Shown here piece after piece: positions 3,035 to 39,427 of a DNA stretch of 64,000 bases. How positions within the stretch are numbered: the first letter of the stretch is position 1; every line of letters starts with the position of its first letter. Below the pieces are notes generated by a model, which was given only the letters and a program-made list of their open reading frames with translations, did not search any database and was not told the DNA's origin. The DNA comes from Antedon mediterranea (lineage: Eukaryota > Echinodermata > Crinoidea > Comatulida > Antedonidae), in assembly GCF_964355755.1 (NCBI RefSeq), contig NC_092673.1, forward strand, positions 5,001 to 69,000. The letters run 5' to 3'. The position numbers and the translations under genes are program-made.

Positions 3035-5232
3035 CTATGATTTTCTGTTTATTGAATCTGGTTTAATCATATCATGCCAAGTCCCAACTGTAGATGCATT
3101 TGCTGGGGTCGTTGGTAGAAGAACTACTTTCGCCGTAGAATGATCAGAACTAGTTTCGGCAGCTTTCTCATCTACTTCATGTGCACTGAAAACATACAAA
3201 TCAAGGTGTCAAATTTTCTCTCACGCCTTATTATTTATGATGAGTAGTTTTAAAGCGTTAATAGTAAAGACCTATGCTATCACAAATTATTCCATGAAAA
3301 CAACAGACGTTCTTAAAATATGACTAAGAAATGTTAACCTTTTCTAACAACTTTAACTACTGAATTGTTTTTTTCTTGTAATTGTATTTCTGTGTCTGTA
3401 TTTTAACTTGAACGCCTACAACTTTAAACCATGTAATGTGTGATGAGGGATATAATAAATGAAATTAAATACAAACGGGAATACTAATACAAAAAATGTA
3501 TAAATGTAATCAGTATGAGCCATGGAAGACTACACTTAGTTTGTAAAACATATTAAAATTTAAATAGTGGGAATAAAACAAACGAGAGGCAAATGGATTG
3601 CTGAAAGTGCGTGAATGTTACAAACTTATTTTGGGTTTAAAACGTTTTAAAAACATTAACAAAATATACAGCATGCAACCCAACAATTTCAGCATTTGGT
3701 CTGCATGTTTGTATCAACCTGAATAAATAAATTAAATTAAATAAATCAAAACATAATAAATACTCACATGAGCATCGTTTCGATTAAAGGTGCAATATGT
3801 TCCCATGAATATTTAGTAAGTTTCCTAAGCTTCGTTGTCCAAGTTGGAGTCAATTTTAGACAGACACGAGAGGCAGCAATACAAGACGCAGCAACAAGTG
3901 ACGGCATACAACTTGAAAATACATGATCTGTTGTTGGAAAAAATTATTAGGTTAATAAAATGATTTAAACATCGGTGAGTATACACTTACGGTTCGTTTC
4001 CATTTCGCCGCTGAGGTTTATATAAAATAATTATTGCTTACGTATGTATGTTCGTAAACTATTCTCTCTTGAATCATTAGGAAACATGCTATATTTGTAT
4101 GTAGACACTACAAACAAAATAGTTAGTTAACAAAACATTCTATCAGTACTAATTACCCGAGGTTATGCATTAATACCTGAGTATAAGACCTGGATATGAG
4201 ATATGAGGAATTAGTATAAGAGCTCGCACAAACACATTCGTTTTTCGGTGTTTAAAATCATGTTTATTTGTTGTTATTATTATCAGAACGAAAGATAACA
4301 CCTGCAACTCCATATTCACACCAGAGACGCTATACGTTTGCTCTGCTTTGATTTTGGAACGAGGCAGCGACTCCTTATGCCTGTAATATAGATGTTTAAT
4401 TCCTCAAACAAATACCTTGAAGTGAAATATCTAAGAAATATTTGGTGTACTTCTTCATGTATGTGACGGCATCAGATAGTGATGTCAGAGGTTGCCCAGC
4501 ATGTAGATCTCTATCACAAACGGCATCAGTAATGTAGTAGTCCATAAAATGAACAGCGGTCGGTATTGAAATTTTCCAAGAAAAAAATTCCAACAGAAGA
4601 ATTTCCATTTTTAAGTAATCACTCTTTTTGTCGGACTCGTAAGCACAACTGTTAAAATTGCATAGACTCATAACCTTTTCTTCTTTTTCTTCATATTTTG
4701 CTGTCAAAACAAATCATAAGGTTTACCCACAGTGGTTTTTAATTACCATCATAAACTATGAAACCTAAATTGCCATTATAACGTTCATCAAATTCTCAAA
4801 TATATAGAGAGAAGTACACGCTAAAGACTTCTAGCTGGCATATGTTGCATTTTTGTCATTACATCTGATGGTTGATCAGGGTACTAAATTTGCTGATAAT
4901 ATTTTATTTTGCATGTTTGTTTCACTGCCGCACTAATTATGTTACTTACTTGCAATAACAAGACAGGAAAGGGCAACAAGATGCAATGTTGCTTCTTTAA
5001 TATCATACTTGTCCATAAACCTGTCCATGCAATATATTGCCAGATGTAAAGTGTATGCTGATATATCGTACTTCTCGGAAATTATAGCCAACCAATCAAC
5101 TAGAAATCTTCGTAGACCAATCTGCGGAGAATTGCAGTTAAATGCAGCCAACTGCTTTTCTTTTGCCTTGAGGGTATGGTGGATGTCACAAGCCAGATCG
5201 GGATCAGTCCACTCATCTCGTATCAGTGTCAT
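3035..5232 (-). CDS. CCNJ: Cyclin J
   Basis: Cyclin-fold protein of the cyclin J family, thought to act with a CDK in the nucleus. The four coding exons on the minus strand are 5232-4950, 4700-4416, 3927-3768 and 3185-3035. All have GT-AG borders and phases that join without a break, giving 292 aa. Exon 1 holds the N-terminal cyclin box (SPQIGLRRFLVDWLAIISEK, then YCMDRFMDKYDI and LHLVALSCLVIA). Exon 2 continues with KYEEKEE, the helix MEILLLEFFSWKISIPTAVH and KYFLDISLQ. Exon 3 has PSLVAASCIAASR and YSWEHIAPLIETML, matching the vertebrate C-terminal cyclin fold. Exon 4 is a short polar tail. The start is placed at the methionine before TLIRDEWTDPDLACDIH, which aligns with the vertebrate N-terminus. 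An acceptor-like site at 5258 means a non-coding 5' exon is likely upstream. The protein is shorter than the roughly 370-aa vertebrate form because of the short tail. The paralogue name CCNJL is not distinguishable in a pre-duplication genome. Confidence 0.93.
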
Positions 5233-5375
5233 GCTGTTGAGGCTTTTTGATGGCAGACCTACAATTAAATTCAAGTTATAAACATTACAATATTATATCA
5301 TCGATAATTGATGTCAGAATGAAGTTCTACTATAAGATATGGATATATAATGTTAGACGACTGCAAGACATCGTC

Positions 5376-38400: not shown

Positions 38401-39427
38401 TCTCCTACAAGATTTGATATTTAACATTTATCTTGAAAAATTTCCAAATTTAAACTTCATTTACAACCTATATAATGGTGTAGCAATCTGTAATATAGTT
38501 CATTCCGAAACAAAACTGCCAATTGTTAGAGATTTGACAAACTATTGGAATCTGATCGCAAGATAGCTTACCCTTCTAAAAAACATCCCTCTACTAGGCA
38601 TGATGAGCAAAGCCGCAACCCTTTTCCTAAAAAATATGTTTATTTAAGATGCCAGGGAATCAAACACACAGCCATTCGGGTGGGTGGAAAAGTGACATTG
38701 ACACACCATTGTGTGTTCATTGATGTGAAGTACCATTTAGGTTTTTTTACCCCTGAGTCAATAATTATTTGTAAATGACGCACCCATGACGAACCTTTCC
38801 CTGGGGTTGTATAGACCTAAAGTGGGTCATACAATTGACAAGTACATTACTGAGTAGTGTGCATGCGTGAGCTATTTAATTGATCAATCCCAATACCAAT
38901 AACAGTGTGTTGGACAGTTTTGCGTTCTGCCGTGTGGGAACAATAACCCCTATTTATTAAAGTATGTCAAATTAAACACAGTAGGCCTAGTTACTGTATA
39001 TTACCCCTGGTTGTTGGGCTTCAGCATTTCTTACAAAATAGCTTCCACTTGAACCCTGATATATTCGTTCTGGATAAACCTCCAAGGAAATTGCTCTTTC
39101 AGCTGACTGTACAATCCTTGTAAATTCTGGATCATCCTCAAATGTATTAAAATAGTTATGTTCTGTTTCATGATCACTAACACTATTACGTAAAAGAGGT
39201 TGTCTTTCTGTCGTAGAGGACGTCATAGTGGGTGAACTTAATCTTGACTGTTCTAATCGTTGGGTTTGAGGTGCGAATATAACGTCAGGCGGGGGATCAC
39301 AAGGGGCTAAATTTACAACACGTTGACTATTAGGCCTAGATCCATTTTCCATAACTGACACGGCTGTGGTTACATCGGTGGTGTCTTCCTCCTCCTGATC
39401 GGCCTTTACTGCGGTTGCGGTACTCAT
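32477..39427 (-). CDS. PI4K2: Phosphatidylinositol 4-kinase type II
   Basis: Makes PI4P from phosphatidylinositol on trans-Golgi and endosomal membranes. Eight minus-strand exons are 39427-39005, 38342-38142, 37796-37665, 37133-36980, 36265-36101, 35990-35857, 35622-35563 and 32647-32477. All are GT-AG and join in frame to 479 aa, the length of human PI4K2A. The disordered N-terminus holds a TERQPLL dileucine-type sorting motif. Then come [16 protein letters not shown], the ATP-lysine segment IIAVFKPK (K148), and the palmitoylated CCPCC loop (170-174). The catalytic DRGNDNW starts at 304 and [10 protein letters not shown] follows near 340. The [17 protein letters not shown] region and TQSFQ near the end also match the family. 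A methionine 20 codons upstream (39487) is in frame; the nearer one is chosen because the extension looks unrelated. Vertebrates have two copies (A and B). Introns 3, 4 and 7 carry tandem repeats. Confidence 0.97.
32791..35494. repeat. 78-bp satellite, about 34.7 copies, filling PI4K2 intron 7
   Basis: Tandem 78-bp unit (AGCAAATCAGAATAATGTAG CTCTAATGAT TGACATTCAC ... GACTGCTTAGAGGTT). It makes up about 2.7 kb of the 2.9-kb intron. Copies are almost identical. One A/G site (TGATTGACATT or TGATTGGCATT) marks copies; numbering from 0, the G form is in copies 7, 8, 15, 16, 25, 27 and 28. Exons on both sides are intact, so the intron is presumably still removed. Confidence 0.98.
36290..36527. repeat. 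33-bp satellite, about 7 copies, in PI4K2 intron 4
   Basis: Copies of CTAGGGCAATTATATATGCC AATGCACCGACTA with small variants (ATATTTGCC, AAATTATAAAATGCC). The array begins about 25 bases upstream of the exon 5 acceptor, so its (minus-strand) sequence lies at the branch-point region. Confidence 0.95.
37520..37687. repeat. 56-bp triplication spanning a PI4K2 splice donor
   Basis: Three copies of a 56-bp unit. Each contains the last 23 or so bases of exon 3 (minus strand CTTGGTCTACCACCAAAG) plus its donor GTATAGTATT and the following intron. The rightmost copy (37661-37687) belongs to the true exon 3; the other two are downstream in intron 3. Confidence 0.95.

Follow-up and report, generated by a model that had tools for sequence, protein, structure and literature searches.

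The NKL/MetaHox linkage group of homeobox genes is textbook material, and the membership of VAX in it is already established. The available portions of two sources place in the human paralogon (2p/8p, 4p, 5q and 10q) VAX1/2, EMX1/2, NOTO, TLX, LBX and HHEX, as well as HMX, MSX, NKX1, NKX3 and NK4 genes, with VAX1/2 at 10q26.11 and 2p13.3, NKX3-2 at 4p15.33 and NKX2-3 at 10q24.2 (PMC2211742, PMC2655272). In the Hong Kong oyster, NK-linked genes including Vax are found on one scaffold, according to the part of the report available (PMC7566022). For echinoderms, the excerpts of a 2024 study describe 23 linkage groups inferred for the eleutherozoan ancestor; that study was without a chromosome-scale crinoid, such genomes being still to come (PMC11310086). 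A search of an open-access library yielded no previous description of the block CCNJ-WDR1-VAX-PI4K2.

Here we describe this block in Antedon mediterranea. The window, that is, the whole stretch of DNA that was analyzed (64,000 nucleotides), comprises positions 5001-69000 of contig NC_092673.1 (hereafter C4), which at 36.19 Mb makes up 10.2% of the chromosome-scale genome assembly (354 Mb, 18 contigs). Eleven of these contigs bear homeobox matches, as against the 23 eleutherozoan linkage groups. We conclude, with a probability that we put at about 85%, that the block derives from the ancestral NK (NKL/MetaHox) linkage group, which was retained on one chromosome here (C4) and duplicated in vertebrates.

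The four genes of the block

The original prediction had placed CCNJ, WDR1, VAX and PI4K2, in that order, within 36 kb, and all four genes were present as placed, at 3.0-39.4 kb of the window, with only WDR1 on the forward strand (Table 1). The four gene calls themselves exceed chance; the 36-kb packing can be given no fair P-value, because the genes were picked for being adjacent.

Judged by sequence comparison, the predicted identities of WDR1 and PI4K2 are secure. The joined exons of WDR1, from which two at 20.2-20.5 kb were omitted, matched WD repeat-containing protein 1 (E 3e-154) and actin interacting protein 1 (E 8e-111), and those of PI4K2 matched phosphatidylinositol 4-kinase type 2-alpha (E 1e-138). 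The probable last exon of PI4K2, found by eye, lies at 35.55-35.66 kb, and its first ATG is at 39427. The cyclin exon frames of CCNJ were located at 4945-5292, 4399-4713 and 3767-3943, with 3035-3208 as the last stretch according to the original prediction only. The best 60 of the 62 solved relatives of the CCNJ product were cyclins A, F, B, D and E, cyclin J being absent among them; we assign the gene to the J type by motifs that we take to be characteristic of CCNJ. The VAX homeodomain is split over two exons (28.7 and 47.3 bits) by an intron of about 240 bases, which follows ...LSETQ and is bounded by GT...AG. Nearest to it among 30 compared homeodomains of the same genome were Emx (28/44) and Not (25/44). 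We chose VAX over EMX by what is presumably the VAX signature, a stretch of 11 residues ahead of the homeodomain and QYVVG within it.

The remainder of the window contains two frames, of 128 and 152 codons, without a Pfam match (41071-42030, +), and a one-exon gene for a macro-domain protein with a membrane-like N-terminus (50516-51550, +; Macro 96.9 bits), two relatives of which were seen by eye about 107-112 kb further on (L114, 3254-3991 and 6516-7295). It also holds a reverse-transcriptase frame of 678 codons (54476-56512, -) and a Penelope-like frame of 650 codons that combines a reverse transcriptase with a borderline GIY-YIG domain (58039-59991, +).

Table 1 Features of the window and of contig C4; the homeobox family names are those that we take to apply
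Feature	Position	Strand	Remarks
Minisatellite, 10 bp x 149	window 1-1492		
CCNJ (cyclin J-like)	window 3035..5292	-	Cyclin_N 61.4 bits; subfamily presumed
WDR1 / AIP1 (actin-interacting WD40 protein)	window 12872..21564	+	multi-exon; ends as given by open frames
Minisatellite, 41 bp x 19	window 19168-19948		inside WDR1 span
VAX homeodomain exons	window 22900..23550	-	intron inside homeodomain; known here without N-terminal exon
Minisatellite, 98 bp x 14	window 26067-27466		
Minisatellite, 78 bp x 35	window 32791-35495		
PI4K2 (type II phosphatidylinositol 4-kinase)	window 35554..39427	-	exon frames 35.84-39.43 kb
ERI1 exonuclease	C4 69-280 kb region		
TNIP relative	C4 69-280 kb region		CC2-LZ domain of NEMO; presumably TNIP
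NEURL1	C4 69-280 kb region		Neuralized and RING domains
ARHGAP19-like gene	C4 69-280 kb region		RhoGAP domain found; presumably ARHGAP19
ARF-like gene	C4 69-280 kb region		
GPCR and two sulfotransferases	C4 69-280 kb region		
NCAPG	C4 ~114-123 kb		
ANAPC4	C4 260-262 kb		
Tlx, Nkx3, Nkx4, Lbx	C4 1.69-1.77 Mb		all inside 71 kb; names assumed
Nkx6	C4 3.61 Mb		name assumed
Nk7	C4 4.48 Mb		name assumed
Msx	C4 4.69 Mb		name assumed
Hhex	C4 4.96 Mb		name assumed
Hmx	C4 5.00 Mb		name assumed
Nkx1	C4 5.05 Mb		name assumed
NK-like homeodomain gene	C4 5.10 Mb		
Emx	C4 15.3 Mb		name assumed
Bar-like gene and Barhl	C4 32.5-32.6 Mb		names assumed
Not	C4 36.08 Mb		name assumed

NK homeobox genes on C4

A genome-wide homeodomain search, in which 150 of 163 candidates were scored, yielded at least 104 matches, including the two VAX exons of the window. 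Loci were taken for 100 of the 102 matches outside the window and their translations read, with one wrong-strand locus left out; the family names used below for NK, Hox, ParaHox, Lhx and other genes are those to which we take these translations to belong.

All 12 NK-group families from the oyster list lie on C4, compared with nine of the 90 other listed matches outside the window, the list having been chosen after the matches were known and Vax and Vent-like dropped from its 14 names (PMC7566022). The chromosome of the block thus carries 12 NK-group families besides VAX, under the names adopted here. NK-group genes are scattered along all of C4 (0.03-36.08 Mb), and their order there has therefore been rearranged. 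The oyster NK genes are likewise on one scaffold but dispersed among others, according to the excerpt available, in contrast to the close Tlx-Nkx3-Nkx4-Lbx group of the crinoid (PMC7566022). Other homeobox groups were found elsewhere: Hox, Meox, Ro, En, Dlx, Gbx and Mnx on C2, ParaHox on C5, and Nkx2.1 and Nkx2.2 on C10. We therefore regard C4 as the NK chromosome of this species. Orthologs, as we take them to be, of the homeobox genes of the human paralogon thus share one chromosome here, whereas in human they occupy several. Nkx6 joins the NK set on C4, unlike human NKX6-1, which the available portions of two sources place at 4q21 (PMC2211742, PMC2655272).

C4 also carries, under names assumed in the same way, Lhx3/4, Pbx, Prrx, Lhx2/9, Lhx6/8 and Barhl (at 6.75, 7.65, 12.19, 27.4, 31.1 and 32.56 Mb, respectively). 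The human relatives of this added Lhx/Pbx/Prrx/Barhl set are found for the most part at 9q33-34 and on chromosome 1, as far as the excerpts of these sources go (PMC2211742, PMC2655272), and C4 seems to have arisen from two ancestral linkage groups that fused. As C4 carries this second set, location on C4 is in itself no proof of origin in the NK group.

Some further homeobox groupings were observed, again under presumed names. Twelve Hox-like homeodomains stand in a row at C2:7.79-8.21 Mb, including Hox4-like and Hox6-like ones, with an Evx-like homeodomain adjoining, and extra Hox11/13-like homeodomains occur at C2:8.83 Mb and C8:11.08 Mb. Cdx-, Pdx- and Gsx-like homeodomains lie within 100 kb at C5:29.97-30.07 Mb, apparently as an intact ParaHox cluster. 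Nkx2.1-, Nkx2.2- and Msxlx-like homeodomains occur together at C10:15.15-15.32 Mb, as they do in the deuterostome pharyngeal gene cluster, and five divergent NK2-like or unusual homeodomains at C9:12.37-17.93 Mb resemble lineage-specific duplicates. The Hox row, which includes posterior genes resembling Hox11/13, the adjacent ParaHox genes and the number of homeobox-bearing contigs would suit a crinoid.

Non-homeobox markers of the linkage group

Seven Pfam families of the human paralogon, chosen by the places of their human genes, were fixed before searching: ANAPC4, MMS19, TAPT1, TACC, EBF, SepSecS and LIM_bind. Pfam searches of the genome placed six of them, and five (ANAPC4, MMS19, TAPT1, TACC and EBF) were on C4 (P 6e-5; if LIM_bind is entered as a miss, 2e-4); LIM_bind gave no match anywhere in the genome and is hence uninformative. 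MMS19_N had an additional weak match on C10. MED28, added after the panel results, was also on C4, giving six of seven placed families (7e-6).

FGF8/17/18 are members of the NKL paralogon in human. Both FGF matches, from a search that preceded the writing of the marker list, were on C5, which counts against the NK-group reading if they are of the FGF8 type. With LIM_bind and FGF both entered as misses, the panel plus MED28 comes to six of nine on C4 (7e-5). SepSecS, on C7, likewise speaks against that reading; goat SEPSECS neighbors PI4K2B in the portion of the list available (PMC9902602). Apart from these two misses, the non-homeobox families that could be placed thus lie on C4 together with the NK set.

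The neighborhood of the block and its vertebrate counterparts

We read C4:69-249 and 250-280 kb for genes (Table 1). NCAPG is about 70 kb away from PI4K2, and ANAPC4 about 216 kb; given that ANAPC4 is on C4, it would fall this close to PI4K2 by chance in about 0.7% of cases. NEURL1 belongs to 10q24/5q35 in human, ERI1 to 8p23, ARHGAP19 to 10q24, TNIP to 4p16/5q33 and ARF-like genes to 5q35. Macro-domain genes, Ig-like and lectin-like frames and retroelements were also seen by eye at C4:69-280 kb. By eye, no relatives of ZNF518 or BLNK/CLNK were noticed among frames of 70 codons or more (C4:69-129 and 250-280 kb) or of 88 codons or more (C4:129-249 kb), thresholds that short exons escape; this speaks against the NK-group reading.

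A goat region, in the excerpt of the list available, runs through LAP3, MED28, FAM184B, DCAF16, NCAPG, LCORL and SLIT2 and further on through SEPSECS, PI4K2B, ZCCHC4 and ANAPC4 (PMC9902602). PI4K2, NCAPG and ANAPC4 are therefore common to this partial list and to less than 220 kb of C4. That unrelated genes were merely joined in the crinoid lineage, with no common ancestral chromosome, is scarcely credible to us. The apparent merger of two ancestral groups in C4 shows that mixing occurred, and SepSecS and FGF are off C4, but such a joining is at odds with the marker panel and NK set on C4 and with NCAPG and ANAPC4 near PI4K2, as in the goat excerpt (PMC9902602).

The places in human of CCNJL, PI4K2A and PI4K2B and the band of human CCNJ are general background; some 20 Mb separate PI4K2A (10q24) from VAX1. 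As their names indicate, ZNF518A and ZNF518B are duplicates of each other, as are BLNK and CLNK, and mammalian CCNJ and WDR1 therefore adjoin copies of the same neighbors. On pig chromosome 14, a 0.5-Mb stretch, as given in the part of the source available, holds CC2D2B, CCNJ, ZNF518A, BLNK and DNTT, with NKX2-3 about 3 Mb off (PMC10034349). Around a variant on human chromosome 4, the only genes within 1 Mb in the excerpted list are SLC2A9, WDR1, ZNF518B and CLNK (PMC5816657). NKX3-2 is in another list, also available in part, of the human WDR1 locus, for which expression and chromatin contact contributed to the mapping (PMC6308232).

The original prediction had suggested actin and PI4P genes as long-term neighbors of VAX. 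For WDR1 this fails in human, where the source portions cited above have WDR1 on chromosome 4 and VAX1/2 at 10q26.11 and 2p13.3. These places also led us to drop a genomic regulatory block around VAX, in which VAX enhancers in or beyond WDR1 or PI4K2 would hold the genes together with WDR1 as a bystander. Tight packing around a developmental regulator is a usual setting for such a block, but long minisatellites lie in this one (19.2-19.9, 26.1-27.5 and 32.8-35.5 kb), and we consider a regulatory block highly improbable.

We also consider it unlikely that the 36-kb order CCNJ-WDR1-VAX-PI4K2 is itself ancestral and older than the vertebrate genome duplications. The duplicate neighbors of mammalian CCNJ and WDR1, in the partial lists above (PMC10034349, PMC5816657), agree with such an order, as do NCAPG and ANAPC4, which lie within 220 kb of PI4K2 here and share its region in the one goat list, as excerpted (PMC9902602). 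Against it stand the shuffled order of C4 and the human positions of VAX, which is close to none of the other three genes, PI4K2A being placed from general background.

Origin of the block

There is good support for a common ancestral chromosome of the four genes. This is also unsurprising, because neighbors on a chromosome of conserved content stem from few ancestral groups, and the 36-kb packing alone therefore proves nothing; that this packing existed before the vertebrate duplications is unproven. Closeness of CCNJ to WDR1 and of PI4K2 to ANAPC4 has indirect support, and a place of VAX beside WDR1 or PI4K2 has none. The predicted origin in the NK paralogon hence stands at the scale of the chromosome, through the 12 NK families and five of the six placed panel families on C4, and falls for a lasting VAX-WDR1 neighborhood.

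In the reading that we prefer, the ancestral NK linkage group would have stayed on C4 and, in vertebrates, have been duplicated to give the 2p/8p, 4p, 5q and 10q arms. Conserved chromosome gene content would suffice to keep the four genes together, making shared regulation unnecessary. Reciprocal gene loss after the vertebrate duplications may then have left CCNJ in one copy (with ZNF518A-BLNK) and WDR1 in another (with ZNF518B-CLNK). The adjacency of CCNJ and WDR1 in the crinoid is as predicted by reciprocal loss from one ancestral segment, and from this we infer both the loss and the closeness of the two genes before the duplications.

A more detailed proposal is tentative, and we rate it somewhat below an even chance: that CCNJ, WDR1, PI4K2, NCAPG and ANAPC4 (with NEURL1, the ARHGAP19-like RhoGAP gene, the TNIP-like gene and ERI1 between) have stayed in one stretch, the first 280 kb of C4, and that reciprocal loss has divided these genes between 10q24 and 4p15-16 in vertebrates. 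This stretch would then preserve the sub-megabase composition of part of the NK group before duplication, with VAX inside, and CCNJ-ZNF518A-BLNK and WDR1-ZNF518B-CLNK would be copies of one segment.

CCNJ, WDR1, PI4K2, NCAPG and ANAPC4 thus serve as non-homeobox markers tied to the NK linkage group outside vertebrates. The block also suggests a pre-duplication arrangement that can be checked, with the CCNJ and WDR1 segments of mammals as two copies of a single ancestral stretch. Agreement in other deuterostomes would make these markers useful for recognizing sister copies among the vertebrate arms.
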